Assembly: GCA_947259405.1 (NCBI GenBank) | Contig: CAMYLY010000004.1 | Coordinates: forward strand, 107,529 to 171,528 | Source: an uncultured Gemmatimonadales bacterium | GTDB taxonomy: Bacteria; Gemmatimonadota; Gemmatimonadetes; Gemmatimonadales; GWC2-71-9 | Length of the DNA stretch: 64,000 nucleotides | Direction: 5' to 3' | Shown here: in pieces, positions 19,857 to 27,504 of the stretch | How the letters are laid out: each line of letters begins with the position of its first letter | Position numbering within the stretch: position 1 is the stretch's first letter | The notes under the pieces: generated by a model | Databases searched by the model: none | What the model was told of the DNA's origin: nothing | The model's input: only the letters and a program-made list of their open reading frames with translations | Program-made: the position numbers and the translations under genes

Positions 19857-20031
19857 AGCCGAGCTGCGCCCAAGCGCCGGCGAGGATGGTTCGGCCCCGG
19901 CGCGCATGTTGAAGTTGCCGGCTCAGGTTCTCCCTCCAAGGTCGTCTTTCCAGGGCTAAACCAAAATTTGACAACGTGTTGAACAAGCGTTGATTCTCAG
20001 GGCCTAGTTTGACTTCCAGTTGCAGCGAATC

Positions 20032-23000
20032 ATGGCCCAGCCGATCGTCACGCTATTCGGACACCCAGGGGTCCACGACGGCGGTGGTTCCGAGATCCGA
20101 TTTAGAACTCGGAAGCACTTGGCGCTGTTTGTGTATCTGGTTCTGGACGGGCGAGCCCGGGGTGTGGACCGCGATCACCTCGCTGACCTGCTGTGGCCCA
20201 AAGTGGACGCCCAACGGGGGAGGCATTCGCTCGCGCAAGCCCTGTCGGCGATTCGAGAGCGTTTTGGGTCGCGCGCATTGACACGTGGTCGCGGGCCCAT
20301 TCGCCTGCTCTGCCCGGTGACGACCGATTTGGACACACCGCTCGGTAGTGCACCTCCATCGGGAGGGATCCAATCCCCACTCGAGGGTCTCGACCTCGCT
20401 GCGGGGCCGGCGTTTGCGCATTGGGTCGACGCCGCCCGGGCACGGCTAAGGAGTCGCGCCCGGGACAGTCTTGAATCGGCGATGGCTGCCGCGGCCGACA
20501 GGGGACAGATCGATCGCGTCCGCGAGCATGCCGCTCGGTTGTATGGGGTGGACCCCCTCAATTCGACTGCGGCAAACGCTCTAGCGGATCAGCTGCTCGA
20601 AGACGGTGATCATACCGGCGCGATCAGACTGCTGCAGCGACACCTCGCGCGCTGCCAACGTGAAGTCGGTGTATCGCCGGAACCAGTCGAACAGCGTATT
20701 CGACGGATCCACGCGGGCCTCAATGGGCCAAGGGAGTCAGCTAGCCCAGCGTTTCCTGAGATCCCAGAGTTCTTCGTCGGGCGTACGCGCGAGATCGCGG
20801 CGCTCGAGCGTCACTGGGCGACCGCACAGGGGGGCGCTCCAATCAGCGTCGCCATCTACGGTAACCCTGGTATCGGCAAATCGACGTTACTCAATCGTTT
20901 CTGCCGCAGTGTCCGCGACCGAGCGTGGCCGGCATTCATGATCTCATGTCCCGAGATTGGCGAGCAGATTCCGTTCGCAGCTACCTCGGAGTTGATCCAC
21001 GCGCTGATGCGGGATCCCGGAGTAAGTGGCGCGGAGCCCATGTGGTTAGCGGAGGCGAGTCGAGTGACGCCGGGCCTGCGGTCTCAGTATCCAGGGATTC
21101 CGGAGGCGCCAAACGTCCCCGCCGAGGCCGTGCGGCTTCGAGTTGCCGAGGCTCTGGCGCAGATGATCCAGGCCGTTGCTGAGTCGGGTCCCGTGCTCAT
21201 CGCGATCGACGATCTGCATCAGATGGATCCGACCAGTCGTGACGTCTTGCATCTCCTTCTCCGGCGACGCGATACAGCACCTACCATGCTCCTCTCCAGC
21301 GCTCGCAGCGCGGAACCTCGCGGTCTCTCAATGGGAGACGAGGATCCTCTCGCACGGATTCAATGGGCGGAGCGAATCTCTCTGCCACCTCTTTCGGACG
21401 CCGAAACGTGCGACCTGATCAGCCGCTTGGCGGAAACGGGGCGCCTGGACACTGACGTGCGCGACGAGATCGTGCGCCTAGCCGAGGGCAATCCGTATTT
21501 AGCCGAGATGCTGCTGTCAGACTGGAACCGAGATCGCGAGCATTCACTGGTTGCCGCCGAGATGCGCGGCGACGCTACCTCGGCCCGTTGGCACCCACCA
21601 GACACGATGCGTCGGGCCTTCACACGGCAGTTTCGCGGTCTGAGTCCCCAAGCCGAGCACGTCGTCCACCTGCTCGCCGTCGTGGGACGCGGATTAGACG
21701 AGGAAAGCATCCGTAGCATACTGCGCATGGATACCGCTGCTGTTGAGCAAGCGACACTCGAGCTTGTGAGCAGGGGGTTGGTTCGCTTTTCAAACGGTCT
21801 CTTTTCGTTCAAAAACGAGATGCACCGCAGATACGTCTACTCAACGATGCCCCACGAAATGGCACCCTACCTACACCATCAAGTGGGTCGGGTCTTCGCA
21901 TCAGGAAGGTTCCCGGATTTCAAGCTTCAACTCGAGGCCTCTCATCACTATCACAGAGCAGGTAGTCACGATCGCGCTGTGGAGATCGCAGTCCAGGGAG
22001 CGAGGGTAGCCATCGTCCGCGGTGCGCCTAGGGAGGCGGAAAGGGCACTGGCTAGCGTTGTGGAGTCGTGCGCGACGCGGGATCATCCCATCGCAATTGT
22101 CGAACTCGCCGCCGCTAAGGCCGCTCAAGGCGATTTCCGAAGCGCCCTCGATGAGCTGGACAGCGTGCAAGTCCAGATACTTCCAAAGCAAGAGCAAGCG
22201 AAAGCTCGACTGCTGCGCGCGGACATTCTACACCACAGTCGCCTCGCAGATGATGAAGTTATCGCTCATTCAGTGACAGCAGCCGCATCCGAAATCCATG
22301 CCATCGGCACGAATGAGCAGAAGCTGCAGTCAATCCAGTTGTGGGCTGAAGTAGCAGCAGACCGGGGCGATTACGACGCCCTCAGGATCGCTCGGGACAT
22401 GGCCGCGAGAATCGGCGCCTTGGATGAGGGTGGTCACACGCGCGCGCTTGCAAGCCTTACTGATGCGTACTGCCTCTTGATGATGGGTGAGCCTTCACGT
22501 GCAACAATGGGCTTCCGCAGTATTCTGTCAGAATTCGCGAACTTATCACTCGAACTTGAACTGCGAAGAGCGTGGAACGGCCTTGGCGTTGCCTTGACCG
22601 CAACCGCAGATTTTCACGAGGCCTCAAGGGCCTTCAAAGAAGCCGCAAAGATCGCCAAGCGTATCGGCGATGTCGAGGCACAATGTAATGCCTGGTCAAA
22701 CCTAGGGGCTCTGTCTGAAGACTATGGCCAGATTAACGACTCCATAGCTGCGTACGAGAACGCCCTGGCGTTAATGAAAAAGGGCATCAGTCCTCGTCGA
22801 TCAGCGGAAGTCTGTATCAACTGTGCGGGTCTTGCCCTCGCAGTCGGAGACCGATCCTCAGCCGAAAGCTGCATCCGTTTTGCCAGGGAGCATGCTAACT
22901 TGTCGCAACTTTGGAGGCTGTCCGTTGATGTCTTTCTGCTCGAAGCAGACTATTATCTTTGTCAGAACGAGAGCGAACTAGCATGGAGTTGTTTTGAAGA

Positions 23001-23421
23001 CGCTGAAGACATACGGAATGGGCGTTCGTATCCACTGGGAAATACCGGGCGTTACGAAAGGCTCAAACGGCATCATATCTGGCACACGTTCGGCGCTCCT
23101 CAAGCGATTGACTATGTCAAGGAGAACCCACTACAGCAAAGGTGTTGGCAAATAGCTGACCAGCTAGAAGTAAAGCTGTTCGAAGGATGGCTGTTCAATT
23201 CCGATGAGGCAAAGGCTCGAGCTGAGAAAGCGCTCAACAACGTAGTGCAGCTTCGGTTGTTCGGAGTGGTCCTGGGACTCGTCCAGCTCAACGTCTGGCC
23301 AACCTTCTTTGAAGGTCGCCGTCGTGGCGAAACTAGCGCGCAGCTAGTCGCTCGTCGCTTTCCGAACGCTCCAACATTAACGGTACCGTCGTCACCCGTC
23401 TTTGCTCGATTAGACGCCTAA
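20032..23421 (+). CDS. Large BTAD/SARP-like transcriptional regulator with AAA ATPase and TPR-like C-terminus
   Basis: N-terminal winged-helix/BTAD-like region (HLALFVYLVLDGRARGVDRDHLADLLWP...RHSLAQALSAIR), P-loop YGNPGIGKSTLLNRF, LIAIDDLHQMDPTSRDVLHLLL, TPR-like tail. Confidence 0.8.
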   Translation: MAQPIVTLFGHPGVHDGGGSEIRFRTRKHLALFVYLVLDGRARGVDRDHLADLLWPKVDAQRGRHSLAQALSAIRERFGSRALTRGRGPIRLLCPVTTDLDTPLGSAPPSGGIQSPLEGLDLAAGPAFAHWVDAARARLRSRARDSLESAMAAAADRGQIDRVREHAARLYGVDPLNSTAANALADQLLEDGDHTGAIRLLQRHLARCQREVGVSPEPVEQRIRRIHAGLNGPRESASPAFPEIPEFFVGRTREIAALERHWATAQGGAPISVAIYGNPGIGKSTLLNRFCRSVRDRAWPAFMISCPEIGEQIPFAATSELIHALMRDPGVSGAEPMWLAEASRVTPGLRSQYPGIPEAPNVPAEAVRLRVAEALAQMIQAVAESGPVLIAIDDLHQMDPTSRDVLHLLLRRRDTAPTMLLSSARSAEPRGLSMGDEDPLARIQWAERISLPPLSDAETCDLISRLAETGRLDTDVRDEIVRLAEGNPYLAEMLLSDWNRDREHSLVAAEMRGDATSARWHPPDTMRRAFTRQFRGLSPQAEHVVHLLAVVGRGLDEESIRSILRMDTAAVEQATLELVSRGLVRFSNGLFSFKNEMHRRYVYSTMPHEMAPYLHHQVGRVFASGRFPDFKLQLEASHHYHRAGSHDRAVEIAVQGARVAIVRGAPREAERALASVVESCATRDHPIAIVELAAAKAAQGDFRSALDELDSVQVQILPKQEQAKARLLRADILHHSRLADDEVIAHSVTAAASEIHAIGTNEQKLQSIQLWAEVAADRGDYDALRIARDMAARIGALDEGGHTRALASLTDAYCLLMMGEPSRATMGFRSILSEFANLSLELELRRAWNGLGVALTATADFHEASRAFKEAAKIAKRIGDVEAQCNAWSNLGALSEDYGQINDSIAAYENALALMKKGISPRRSAEVCINCAGLALAVGDRSSAESCIRFAREHANLSQLWRLSVDVFLLEADYYLCQNESELAWSCFEDAEDIRNGRSYPLGNTGRYERLKRHHIWHTFGAPQAIDYVKENPLQQRCWQIADQLEVKLFEGWLFNSDEAKARAEKALNNVVQLRLFGVVLGLVQLNVWPTFFEGRRRGETSAQLVARRFPNAPTLTVPSSPVFARLDA

Positions 23422-24688
23422 CTGAAGCGCTCCTTAGGAACGTCGAAACGAGGCGTGGATCAAATTGCTTGCCAGACAAAAGCTGCAACTCACTTGTGAC
23501 ATCATCATAACCGAGAGCGTCGCGGTAAGGCCGGTCAGTAGTCATGGCGTCCGCCGTGTCAGCGATCATTATGATACGAGCCCCAAGGGGAATGTCATCA
23601 CCGACTAGGGAGTCCGGGTAGCCGTTGCCATCGTAGTTCTCGTGATGATGCCTAACGTAGCGTTCAACGGGCCCGCGCAGGTTTGAAATGGTACGGATCA
23701 GCTCGGCGCTCCGATCCACATGAGTCCGCATGAGCTGGCGCTCAGCATCTGTGAGCTTGCCTTCCTTACGAAGGATGGGCGCAAACTCCTCGTATATCTT
23801 GCCTACATCATGCAGGAGGGCCGCTGTTGCAATTTGGTCAATCTCGCGGAAGCCGAGGCCGATTTCACGGGCGAGGGTGCGCGCAAATTCCGCGACTCGC
23901 TGAGAATGCCCACTCGTGTAGGGATCACGAGCTTCAATGGACTTCACCATCAGCTCCAGTAATTCTCGGTTCGTCTCCTGAAGTTGGACGTTGATGAGAA
24001 TTGTGTGACGAAGGAACAAAATCGGCACCACCACGATAGCGATCCCCCATACCTCCAAGCGGATGTACAGCCAAGCGATTCCCAATCCAAGCGCTGAGGC
24101 CACCAGGTGATACGCCACTAAACTGCCAGTGTTCTTGATCCATACATCGGCGAAGCGGCGACCTTCACTTAGCGAGATTACTCCGCTAACTGCTGCAGAA
24201 TTGACGGCAAAGAACCCTAACACAAGCGCGACGAAGGGTAACAGCGCATCGTTTAGTGACTCGGGAGGCACGGGGCCCCCGAAAAACAGATAGAGCTGGG
24301 CGCCCGCGAGGATCGCCAGCACATGCTGCGCCACATTGAATGTGGTCTTCTCCAAACCCTTTCTGAGCGTTAGTTGTGCACCCAAGAGACTGACGCCCGT
24401 AACAAACGCTCCGAGAATTGGCCCGAAGACCAAGGCCGCGCCCATGTACACGATGAACGAGATCGTACCGTGTCCAACACCAACGCTCAGTCGGTGCTCG
24501 GAAACCTGAAGCCCATAGCCGATGAGGCTGAAGGCGACCAAACCAGCGATGGACGGAGCGATATTCGCCAGTTGGTACCGCTCGACGTAGGCTGAAGCAA
24601 ATACTGCAGCCACCGCCATAACGGCGATCACCGTTATGTAGTGACGAACCAGAGTCTCTCTCCGACGATCAAGAAATGCAGGATGCAT
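23333..24688 (-). CDS. Membrane-anchored HD-GYP domain protein (putative c-di-GMP phosphodiesterase)
   Basis: Hydrophobic N-terminus; HSQRVAEFARTLA, LLHDVGKI, HHENYDGNGYPDSLVG, ARIIMIADTADAMTTDRPYR. Confidence 0.92.
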   Translation of the reverse strand: MHPAFLDRRRETLVRHYITVIAVMAVAAVFASAYVERYQLANIAPSIAGLVAFSLIGYGLQVSEHRLSVGVGHGTISFIVYMGAALVFGPILGAFVTGVSLLGAQLTLRKGLEKTTFNVAQHVLAILAGAQLYLFFGGPVPPESLNDALLPFVALVLGFFAVNSAAVSGVISLSEGRRFADVWIKNTGSLVAYHLVASALGLGIAWLYIRLEVWGIAIVVVPILFLRHTILINVQLQETNRELLELMVKSIEARDPYTSGHSQRVAEFARTLAREIGLGFREIDQIATAALLHDVGKIYEEFAPILRKEGKLTDAERQLMRTHVDRSAELIRTISNLRGPVERYVRHHHENYDGNGYPDSLVGDDIPLGARIIMIADTADAMTTDRPYRDALGYDDVTSELQLLSGKQFDPRLVSTFLRSASVRRLIEQRRVTTVPLMLERSESDERLAAR

Positions 24689-24713
24689 GTGAGGGGTGAG
24701 CCCCCAAAACTAC

Positions 24714-24791
24714 TTAGCCCCAGACTTGTCCGCTTGCTAAAAAGAATCGCGCCAGCGCGGTGAACAACCCGGCAAGCCAGCCAAACTCCAT
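24714..24791 (-). CDS. 25-aa small hydrophobic peptide upstream of HD-GYP gene (not in ORF track)
   Basis: MEFGWLAGLFTALARFFLASGQVWG*; preceded on minus strand by GAGGAGGTGAGGCTCT then ATG. Confidence 0.5.
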   Translation of the reverse strand: MEFGWLAGLFTALARFFLASGQVWG

Positions 24792-24792
24792 A

Positions 24793-24865
24793 GAGCCTCA
24801 CCTCCTCTCGGGCAGCGTCCGCTGCGTGGGAAGTGGCATACCCCGCTATGGTACGCCCGAGGCTC
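24793..24865 (-). promoter_or_regulatory. Candidate structured leader RNA upstream of the small ORF and HD-GYP gene
   Basis: P1 CTCGGGC(24807-24813)/GCCCGAG(24855-24861); P2 GCATACC(24836-24842)/GGTACGC(24850-24856); P3 GCAGC(24812-24816)/GCTGC(24821-24825); alternative GAGCCTC(24793-24799)/GAGGCTC(24859-24865). Confidence 0.4.
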
Positions 24866-24980
24866 CGCTCATCCTGAAGTCCGATCTGCTCAGCTCTGTT
24901 ACGCGTGGCGCCGTGGCTAATCAGCTCCGGGGGCCCCCTACCTCCTTTCTATTCGCACTCAGGTCTTGAGACCCGAGGGC

Positions 24981-25005
24981 AAAAAGCCCCGCCGGTTGGC
25001 GGGGC
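24981..25005 (-). terminator. Rho-independent terminator after the 25033-25767 gene
   Basis: On minus strand GCCCCGCC-AACC-GGCGGGGC-TTTTT. Confidence 0.9.
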
Positions 25006-25032: not shown

Positions 25033-25767
25033 CTAGGTCCGACTTCCCAGCCACCGGTTGGTGGCATCCAAGACCGCAAGGACAGACGCCTGCTCCAAGT
25101 CCTCCGTCACGACGGCCGAGCCGCACAGCAAACGCGTGTTTCGGCCCGCAACGGTTCGCACGCCGCACACGACGACCTGCGCATCAAATTCCTCTATGAC
25201 CTTCAAGCCTTCCATCTCGATCGTGTTCACGGGCAACAACCGGTCGAGGAGCGCGACCGCCGCGCGCGCCGCACCTTGCATGCGCGAGCGCTTGGTATCG
25301 GCAACTTCTTCCTCTCCCGTGCCTTCCGTTCCCCGAACCGACAGCGTGACATGCATATTCACGCGTAACGATCCGACCGGCTCCACATCGATCCCCTGAA
25401 AGAGGATCTGCCGCTTGTTCGCCAAGCTCGCGACCGCCTCCTCCTCGAGGGCTTCGATGGGTTGCACATCCGCCGTCTGCGCAACACTGATCTTGCGGTG
25501 ATCCACCTTGAGACCCAGCTGAGCCAGGAGCGCACTCTCGATGTTGCGCACCATCTGCTTGGGCGACGTGCCCGGCTGGGCGAGAATGTGCACCGCCTTC
25601 ACCTCACCGATCGGTGACACCTCGACTCTCGCCGAGAGCACGCCCTGCAGACTGGACAAGAGGTTTTCGGCGCGCCGGACGCCCCAGGGATCAGGATGCT
25701 TTTCTTCCTGATGCTCTTCTTCCGGCTGGTTTCCTGCCGCCTGCACCTGTGGATCGCTCACGTTCAT
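25033..25767 (-). CDS. Conserved-looking protein of unknown function
   Basis: 244 aa, charged N-terminus, RRAENLLSSLQGVLSARVEVSPIGEVKAVHILAQPGTSPKQMVRNIESALLAQLGLKVDHRKISVAQ; ends just before a terminator. Confidence 0.75.
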   Translation of the reverse strand: MNVSDPQVQAAGNQPEEEHQEEKHPDPWGVRRAENLLSSLQGVLSARVEVSPIGEVKAVHILAQPGTSPKQMVRNIESALLAQLGLKVDHRKISVAQTADVQPIEALEEEAVASLANKRQILFQGIDVEPVGSLRVNMHVTLSVRGTEGTGEEEVADTKRSRMQGAARAAVALLDRLLPVNTIEMEGLKVIEEFDAQVVVCGVRTVAGRNTRLLCGSAVVTEDLEQASVLAVLDATNRWLGSRT

Positions 25768-25770
25768 CCG

Positions 25771-27504
25771 TTATTCCTTCACCGTGACATCGTCACCCAC
25801 CGTGACATCGTCTCCGTCCGCCGTTGCCATCGCCACGTAGTTGCCACCCCTCCCCTTCGCCAGGTACACCGCGCGATCCGCGCGATCCAACGCCTCATCC
25901 GGGTCGACATCCTCCTGCGGCGAAAACGCCGCGGCGCCAATCGATACCGTAACCGCGTCCTCCGCGTAGCCGAGCGAGCGTCCAACACGCGCGACCCGCT
26001 GCCGCACCAGTTCCCCCACGTGCCGCACCCCGCTGATGTCCGTCCCAACGAGAATCAACACGAACTCGTCACCACCATACCGGGCCGCCACGTCCGTCTT
26101 ACGCACAACGCCCTGTATCTCCCGCCCAACGGCCCGCAGCACCGTATTTCCCGCCTGGTGCCCGTGAATGTCGTTCACCAACTTGAAGCGATCCAGGTCC
26201 AGAAACAGGACCGCAAACGGTTCGCCGTTACGTTGACTGCGCCAAATCTCCTGCGCCAGCCGATCCTTGAGCACCCGGAACGTGGACAATCCCGTGAGCT
26301 CGTCCGTCGCCGCCTGCCGCGCCGCTTCCACCGCGCGACGTTCTTGGTGCGGCGGACACTGCCGGAGCGTCGCTCGCCCCTTGAGGTACGCTCGCGCAAA
26401 ATCCACGCACTTCGCGTACCCGCACGCTGCGCAGTCCCAATGCGCTCCACTCGGCGCCCTCCCAATGCGATCGATCACCGATGCGATCTCGAGCGGCATC
26501 GCCGTGACCACAATCTCCGCCGGTGTAAACGAGGCGGACACGGTCACCCGCACATTCGGGTTCACCACCGGGACTTCGCTCCGCCGAGGCTCGGCCTGCC
26601 GGGCAATCTCCCGGCGCTTGAACAACTCCTCGCGCGGGCCCAACAACGGGTGATCCAGACACCCCTCGCAGGGCAGCAGATCCACGAAACCCAGGTCGAC
26701 CTTATCCACGGTCACCGCTCGCGAAAGCACACCCAGCGAACCCAAACCACGAATCTTCCGGAACCGCCGACTTGCCTGCGGCTCGTCCTTCAACACCTGC
26801 AACGGCAGGCCACCCGAGGTGCTCAGGTGGCGCTGGCGTACCTCAGGAATGCGATCGAAGTACCGCTCCTGCGTCCCAATCGACACGCCACGCCGCTTGA
26901 ACAACGTCTGCAACTCGTCGAAGGTGATCACGGCGTCCACGACGCCATTGCCTTCGGTCACACACACGCCGGCATACACCAGCGGAACATCGCCCTGCTC
27001 ACCCCGGATATAGGCCGCCTCGGCTGCCAGCGGTGTCGTTACCGGTGCCAGATACGGCACCAACTCCGGGTACTCGTGTCGAATCCGCTCGATCACGATA
27101 GGGCACGTCGACCGAATCAACGTTCCCCACGAGGGGTCCGCCCACAGGCTACAGTACTCGGCCGCCACCAGTTCATCGCCCACGACACCACGGTGGACCG
27201 TCTTGAACCCGGCCGCATAACAGGCGTTGACAAGTTGTTCCGGGGCGTAGGGGTGGAAGTACACCTCCGCTTCGACGCCCAGCACGAGCGCCGCTTCGCC
27301 CCCACCCGCCAACCCCTCCGCACGCTCCAAATCCCCAATCGCGTCGATGGCCTCGTGCGGACATGCCGGAACGCAAGCCCCAGCTCGGATACACGTTTCA
27401 TCAACGATCCGGACCACCTCGCCATCAATCGCAATGGCCTGAGATGGACAGACCCGAACACACGCCAAGCAACCAACGCACTTGTCGTTGATTTCGAAGC
27501 GCAT
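25771..27504 (-). CDS. Fusion: 2x[4Fe-4S] ferredoxin, degenerate [FeFe]-hydrogenase-like domain, Fe-S domain, GGDEF diguanylate cyclase
   Basis: CVGCLACVRVCP, CIRAGACVPACP; RSTCPIVIERIRHEYPELVPYLAPVTTPL; CAACGYAKCVDFARAYLKGRATLRQCPP; YGGDEFVLIL. Confidence 0.85.
   Translation of the reverse strand: MRFEINDKCVGCLACVRVCPSQAIAIDGEVVRIVDETCIRAGACVPACPHEAIDAIGDLERAEGLAGGGEAALVLGVEAEVYFHPYAPEQLVNACYAAGFKTVHRGVVGDELVAAEYCSLWADPSWGTLIRSTCPIVIERIRHEYPELVPYLAPVTTPLAAEAAYIRGEQGDVPLVYAGVCVTEGNGVVDAVITFDELQTLFKRRGVSIGTQERYFDRIPEVRQRHLSTSGGLPLQVLKDEPQASRRFRKIRGLGSLGVLSRAVTVDKVDLGFVDLLPCEGCLDHPLLGPREELFKRREIARQAEPRRSEVPVVNPNVRVTVSASFTPAEIVVTAMPLEIASVIDRIGRAPSGAHWDCAACGYAKCVDFARAYLKGRATLRQCPPHQERRAVEAARQAATDELTGLSTFRVLKDRLAQEIWRSQRNGEPFAVLFLDLDRFKLVNDIHGHQAGNTVLRAVGREIQGVVRKTDVAARYGGDEFVLILVGTDISGVRHVGELVRQRVARVGRSLGYAEDAVTVSIGAAAFSPQEDVDPDEALDRADRAVYLAKGRGGNYVAMATADGDDVTVGDDVTVKE

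Follow-up and report, generated by a model that had tools for sequence, protein, structure and literature searches.

What does a 25-residue open reading frame (ORF) with a strong ribosome-binding site do directly ahead of a gene for a membrane HD-GYP protein? The pair lies in a 64,000-nt stretch of DNA (the window) that is part of a 61%-complete MAG, G000, and a first-pass annotation had offered three roles for the peptide: a leader, a membrane micro-protein partner of the enzyme, or a secreted signal sensed by it. The small ORF and its Shine-Dalgarno sequence (SD) are present on the minus strand exactly where they were annotated, the region upstream of the start reading GAGGAGGTGAGGCTCT, and the sequence confirms the 25 bp described between the ORF stop and the HD-GYP ATG at position 24688.

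24714 to 24791, minus strand: small ORF of 25 aa, MEFGWLAGLFTALARFFLASGQVWG, stop codon TAA (evidence: ATG to TAA, homologues, dN/dS).
23333 to 24688, minus strand: HD-GYP protein of 451 aa, with the HD-GYP domain at residues 246 to 413.

Relatives were found by HD-GYP similarity, a four-row alignment taking the place of an N-domain alignment that was too divergent for patterns. Nearly all, Gemmatimonas among them, are named Gemmatimonadetes or Gemmatimonadota in their records, which places the window in that phylum. Wherever the upstream sequence is long enough, the HD-GYP gene is, with hardly an exception, directly preceded by a short hydrophobic ORF that has a strong SD, and in all loci read it follows the peptide immediately. 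The recurring order is a structured RNA, a very strong SD, a hydrophobic peptide of 14 to 39 aa ending in W or W-x, and the HD-GYP gene; three families of the window's order share it, as do further orders of the class (Gemmatimonadota), and in other families of the class the ORF was present in 18/18 loci with readable upstream DNA, plus L174 and L175. An SD-led ORF occurs at 152 distinct homologous loci, and 147 of these ORFs are complete (14 to 39 aa, mode 23). Tryptophan is penultimate in 107 of the 147 complete peptides, last in 28, third from last in 1 and absent from 11. At position -6, D, G or E predominate, as do A, G or S at position -7. The tail as a whole runs from a small residue through an acidic or polar one and two to three variable positions to W, which an optional last residue may follow.

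Conservation of the frame in relatives with the HD-GYP gene extends across the class, and the substitution rates (proposed in the annotation as Ka/Ks) agree with coding: dN/dS is 0.17 to 0.40 in six independent clades, with codon position 3 the most variable and position 2 the least. SD-led short ORFs do arise by chance, but the frame conserved across loci and the dN/dS values already refute that explanation, whose probability we put close to nil. Judged by frame and substitution pattern, the small ORF is a conserved coding gene, far beyond chance. In the clade of L006 and its relatives, dN/dS of the last seven codons is 0.81 versus 0.11 for the remaining ORF, a rise that not all of the other clades show. 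In some clades I, L or V takes the place of W; this points to selection for hydrophobicity at this residue and not for UGG at the RNA level.

The first-pass annotation noticed the small ORF upstream of the HD-GYP gene but missed the conserved structured RNA around it, whose parts, all on the minus strand, are as follows.

24698 to 24947, minus strand: conserved structured RNA enclosing the small ORF (conservation, covariation, fold z = -3.14).
24918 to 24936, minus strand: closing helix P1, 5' strand, GGGCCCCCGGAGCTGATTA.
24886 to 24896, minus strand: GAGCTGAGCAG, the window's counterpart of the conserved motif region AGCGGAG..AGCGG, which lies upstream of the junction.
24859 to 24865, minus strand: junction helix, 5' strand GAGCCTC, pairing with the GAGGCTC that adjoins the start codon.
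24835 to 24858, minus strand: hairpin with the conserved AUAGCGG/A loop, GGGCGTACC-ATAGCGG-GGTATGCC.
24829 to 24834, minus strand: anti-SD strand ACTTCC, pairing with the small ORF SD.
24800 to 24807, minus strand: SD of the small ORF, GAGGAGGT, paired in the conserved fold.
24793 to 24799, minus strand: junction helix, 3' strand GAGGCTC.
24698 to 24716, minus strand: closing helix P1, 3' strand, TAAGTAGTTTTGGGGGCTC, from the small ORF stop codon towards the HD-GYP start.
24986 to 25005, minus strand: terminator-like hairpin and T-run, separating the element from the upstream gene.

The RNA comes in two related types, A and B, and the window carries the A-type. The A-type has a three-way junction in which GAGCGUC pairs with GACGCUC adjoining the start codon, ACUUCCC pairs with the SD GGGAGGU, and a hairpin bears an AUAGCGA/G loop; the window's junction helix, GAGCCUC/GAGGCUC, is a compensatory change relative to the GAGCGTC/GACGCTC of its relatives. 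In the B-type, a helix of GCG-GA-GCC..ACC with GG..GGU-GA-CGC likewise covers the SD. Paired cells make up 95.5% of the A-type and 94.1% of the B-type alignments, with 51 and 39 double-change cells (14.2 and 13.9 in shuffles), and pair counts in both types exceed shuffled and slid controls. P1 is a long-range pairing of the element's 5' end with the stretch that separates the ORF stop from the HD-GYP start; L071 (AAACCCCCGACUCCGGC/GCCGGAGUCGGGGGUUU) and L174 (GGCCUCCCAG/CUGGGAGGCC) are examples. Scored as an ungapped helix over 158 loci, P1 reached 33.6 when each locus was paired with its own arms, against 24.0 in the cross-locus control (arms of different loci) and 21.2 in the shuffled one; own arms exceeded the 95th percentile of shuffled arms in 80% of loci and arms of different loci in 18%. 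An RNAduplex comparison of the arms was noisy because of the long loops. RNAalifold recovered P1 unprompted in clade alignments, and the window RNA folded alone gives the P1 structure (-119.6 kcal/mol, z -3.14). On this comparative evidence, the RNA is conserved and covarying in both the SD-burying helix and P1. The pairing of a GGGGG tract with CCCC just before the HD-GYP ATG, suggested in the annotation, is possible but is not the favored fold; in the minimum-energy fold and the comparative evidence, the partner of the tract is the 5' end of the element, some 230 nt upstream.

An Rfam search of the region gave no match to the element at E up to 5, its single hit, to a snoRNA, falling within the HD-GYP gene and being due to chance, and literature searches on Gemmatimonadetes, RNA motifs and HD-GYP, with related searches, returned no description of the element. 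No Rfam family corresponds to the structured RNA, which is a new class. Covariance models find it usually once per genome within the class. A search for copies away from HD-GYP genes gave one convincing orphan, most other second matches lying at contig ends: L168 (G052:C11:73683-73757), about 13 kb from the main locus, is a partial copy that has the hairpin, the SD and an ORF, MMDFLSSAWNAVAKIAAALSGGIEWQ; after the ORF come a terminator-like hairpin and no HD-GYP gene. Type I toxin mRNAs encode short hydrophobic peptides behind a sequestered SD, with 5'-3' pairing. The element resembles them in all three traits, and the L168 copy has a terminator and no HD-GYP gene, as if the peptide were a hydrophobic toxin and the proximity of HD-GYP incidental. 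The usually single copy, the fixed synteny with one gene across the class and the co-variation with the sensor domain described below speak against a type I toxin-like mRNA, which we consider very improbable.

How the enzyme is translated follows from its start. The small ORF SD is near-perfect (median -16.8 kcal/mol), whereas the HD-GYP start, typically the first in-frame ATG or GTG and 26 to 40 nt past the ORF stop, has an SD energy of -5.8 versus a background of -4.4 kcal/mol and is covered by the conserved helix. Because HD-GYP starts have no SD above background, translational coupling of the two genes is likely; the suggestion of such coupling in the annotation is well supported by the SD energies and the helix over the start. 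We propose that the small ORF SD is buried in the RNA fold and that ribosomes finishing the ORF open P1, whereupon HD-GYP would be translated. This course of events is quite probable, and with it the RNA would gate peptide and receptor together. A short coding ORF in a structured leader able to occlude the downstream start is also the arrangement of leader-peptide attenuators. Were the peptide purely a leader, it would have no function apart from its translation: the RNA and a translating or stalled ribosome would control HD-GYP expression, with the terminal Trp sensed or causing arrest. The sequestered SD, the course of P1 from the stop codon towards the HD-GYP start, the lack of an HD-GYP SD and the W found almost without exception at one of the last two codons all suit that explanation.

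The candidate partner of the peptide is the N-terminal part of the HD-GYP protein.

23954 to 24688, minus strand: region coding for residues 1 to 245, the N-terminal membrane sensor domain, which has a predicted ECF S-component-like fold.

The output domain matches PF13487 (HD_5 profile; E 4e-33) and solved phosphodiesterases, and the window's protein carries the motifs HDVGK and HHHENYDGNGYP; by strict pattern, HD[IV]GK is present in 129/131 homologues and HHHE..DG.GYP in 94/131. Profile and motifs identify an HD-GYP phosphodiesterase predicted to cleave c-di-GMP (or 3'3'-cGAMP). The N-terminal 245 residues belong to no Pfam or NCBIfam family. Their AlphaFold2 model (pLDDT 93.1, pTM 0.89) was compared with the PDB by Foldseek, and the first nine matches were all ECF S-components (probability 0.98 to 1.00, E 0.015 to 0.22), with a best match of E 0.015 at probability 1.00 and no E-value passing 0.001. 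The N-terminus is therefore predicted to adopt an ECF S-component fold. It would resemble RibU, ThiT, FolT and BioY in fold, but it is fused to HD-GYP and shares 10 to 19% sequence identity with S-components. To our knowledge, neither an S-component-type peptide receptor nor a peptide-sensing HD-GYP protein has been described. Of 395 sampled genomes of the phylum, 191 carry the domain, and those among the rows listed all belong to the same class. Variation within the domain peaks around helix 1 and at residues 89 to 104 and 129 to 150, stretches that would include predicted outer helix ends if the HD domain is cytosolic. A scan of IMG/VR for HD-GYP relatives confirmed none. A role in anti-phage defense was rejected, as the profile search matched only Cas3-type profiles, via the shared HD fold.

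A third gene, next to the element on its other side, served as a reference in comparing the histories of tail and receptor.

25033 to 25767, minus strand: upstream conserved gene of 244 aa, ending ..VLDATNRWLGSRT, syntenic at most loci.

Its product has no Pfam match, and in the L006 clade it is swapped for a different gene. In a partial Mantel analysis of five distances, with HD domain, upstream gene, RNA and peptide N-part as controls, the sensor domain alone predicted tail distance (r 0.201, permutation maximum 0.105), which was not explained by HD domain, upstream gene or RNA. Among close pairs, the peptide N-part (0.33) equals the receptor (0.32) in its correlation with the tail. Linkage contributes, since the peptide and receptor genes are neighbors and can be inherited together; the RNA and the peptide N-part lie nearer the tail than most of the receptor, yet fail to explain the pattern overall. 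Where HD distance is below 0.1, mean sensor distance rises from 0.13 for identical tails to 0.39 for five differences. Loci L090 and L088, whose tails differ, are 0.02 apart in the upstream gene and 0.05 in the HD domain, with a sensor distance of 0.32; the identical-tail pairs L144/L135, L230/L225 and L192/L177 have sensor distances of 0.03, 0.13 and 0.14, and in some identical-tail pairs it reaches 0.37 to 0.40. Within a cluster of 16 loci, the sensor tree separates KTWG from KL/KIWG tails, and the upstream-gene tree pairs L177 with L178, L194 with L208 and L179 with L183. Approximately unbiased (AU) tests on groups picked after the trees had been seen showed that sensor-domain data reject these sister pairs (p-AU 1e-5, 2e-5 and 0.010) and that upstream-gene data reject both tail groups, while one three-row group was not rejected (p 0.09). 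Mapping of a tail trait gives 2 changes for the sensor tree, 3 for the HD tree and 6 for the upstream tree.

For a pure leader, these data are hard to accommodate: the variable residues adjoin W and follow the receptor domain rather than the RNA, I, L or V can substitute for W, and lengths of 14 to 39 aa with diverse hydrophobic parts are unlike a specific arrest motif. The regulatory RNAs tnaC, trp leader and ilvB uORF share with this locus a short coding ORF, a structured leader and an occluded downstream start; here, however, no regulatory codon run is present, the closing helix encloses the whole ORF, and the variable tail follows the sensor domain of the downstream protein. We therefore regard a pure leader as unlikely. 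Of the three roles first offered, co-variation favors a peptide recognized by the sensor, while sequence does not separate secretion from action inside the producing cell or in its membrane.

We propose that small ORF, structured RNA and HD-GYP gene form one signaling module, in which the hydrophobic part of the peptide would act as leader or anchor and the tail would be recognized by the S-component-like domain of the adjacent HD-GYP protein, altering its phosphodiesterase output. Recognition of this kind has, in our estimate, somewhat better than an even chance; the fuller statement, of a cis-encoded peptide recognized by the HD-GYP sensor and gated by the RNA, we hold with only slight preference. 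Alternatively, the peptide might stay in the producer's membrane and bind the sensor as a cis subunit or tethered ligand, as its hydrophobic N-part, co-translation with the receptor and co-variation with the sensor domain would allow. Some peptides are only 14 to 16 aa long, below classical signal peptide size and too short to span the membrane as a normal helix, so a micro-protein with a single transmembrane helix is judged less likely; the conflict of tail and receptor alleles with the upstream-gene tree also fits intercellular specificity better. A micro-protein partner is in our view rather unlikely. The tail might instead be released and serve as a pheromone from cell to cell, so that alleles of tail and receptor would define pherotypes, which we entertain as a reasonable possibility short of an even chance. 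More tentative still is the complete scheme of an RNA-gated, W-tailed pheromone sensed from outside by an S-component-like receptor, with c-di-GMP hydrolysis as output and pherotypes exchanged between lineages. The neighborhood of the window's locus showed neither a dedicated exporter or protease nor a modifier of the ComQ kind.

Several features of the surroundings may be recorded here. Two genes upstream of HD-GYP (25771 to 27504, minus strand), 4Fe-4S and Fe-hydrogenase-like domains are fused to GGDEF, apparently a redox-linked diguanylate cyclase. At its other end, the HD-GYP gene overlaps tail to tail by 89 bp (23333 to 23421) with a plus-strand ORF for a BTAD/AAA/TPR regulator (1133 aa, 20020 to 23421). 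In the L006 clade, the element and the first ~17 ORF codons are ~93% identical, falling to 40% just after the tail codons, and synteny is absent downstream of the HD-GYP gene. Many assembly contigs stop at or just past the element (L162, L163, L166, L171, L172, and contigs C30 and C37 of G003), those of L162 and L163 immediately before the peptide tail, which suggests that strain variation starts there.

Among known systems, ComX-ComP of Bacillus pairs a very variable pre-peptide bearing a Trp near its C terminus with a receptor, ComP, whose N-terminal membrane domain varies far more than the cytoplasmic one, in pherotype-like alleles (PMC4008528). The present locus likewise has a variable peptide with a Trp in its C-terminal region and an adjacent candidate membrane receptor with a variable N-domain. 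It differs from ComQXPA in peptide length (14 to 39 aa versus 52 to 73 for ComX), in having no ComQ prenyltransferase among the annotated neighbors of the window's locus, in a receptor predicted to carry an S-component-like domain on HD-GYP where ComP is a histidine kinase, and in an ORF embedded in structured RNA. The best reading by analogy is a ComX-ComP-like peptide-receptor logic that would have a c-di-GMP output. The streptococcal ComRS and SHP-Rgg systems also place a tiny hydrophobic precursor with a C-terminal Trp motif beside the receptor gene, and the active form of ComS is its last 7 to 8 residues, with a WW motif (PMC5131902). In those systems the peptide is imported and meets a cytosolic TPR transcription factor, whereas the receptor here would be a membrane HD-GYP enzyme. 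As ComQ is absent from the neighborhood of the window's locus, and as kinase and Rgg receptor are both missing, the peptide system belongs to neither family. GEMM-I/II c-di-GMP riboswitches are also structured RNAs ahead of c-di-GMP enzyme genes, but the element here has no Rfam match and holds a conserved ORF.

The tail evolves together with the sensor part of the enzyme, as if the peptide were the sensor's private signal. Gemmatimonadota are abundant in soil and water and almost uncultured, and in the literature searched we found no description of a cell-cell signal in this phylum. Even if the peptide is merely a leader, the RNA with its double lock would be a new regulatory RNA class. If our proposal is true, it would be the first peptide pheromone system for Gemmatimonadota, a circuit found throughout the class that leads from peptide to c-di-GMP by way of a new type of receptor, together with an RNA class absent from Rfam. 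Its naturally matched alleles of peptide and receptor would allow direct tests of specificity.
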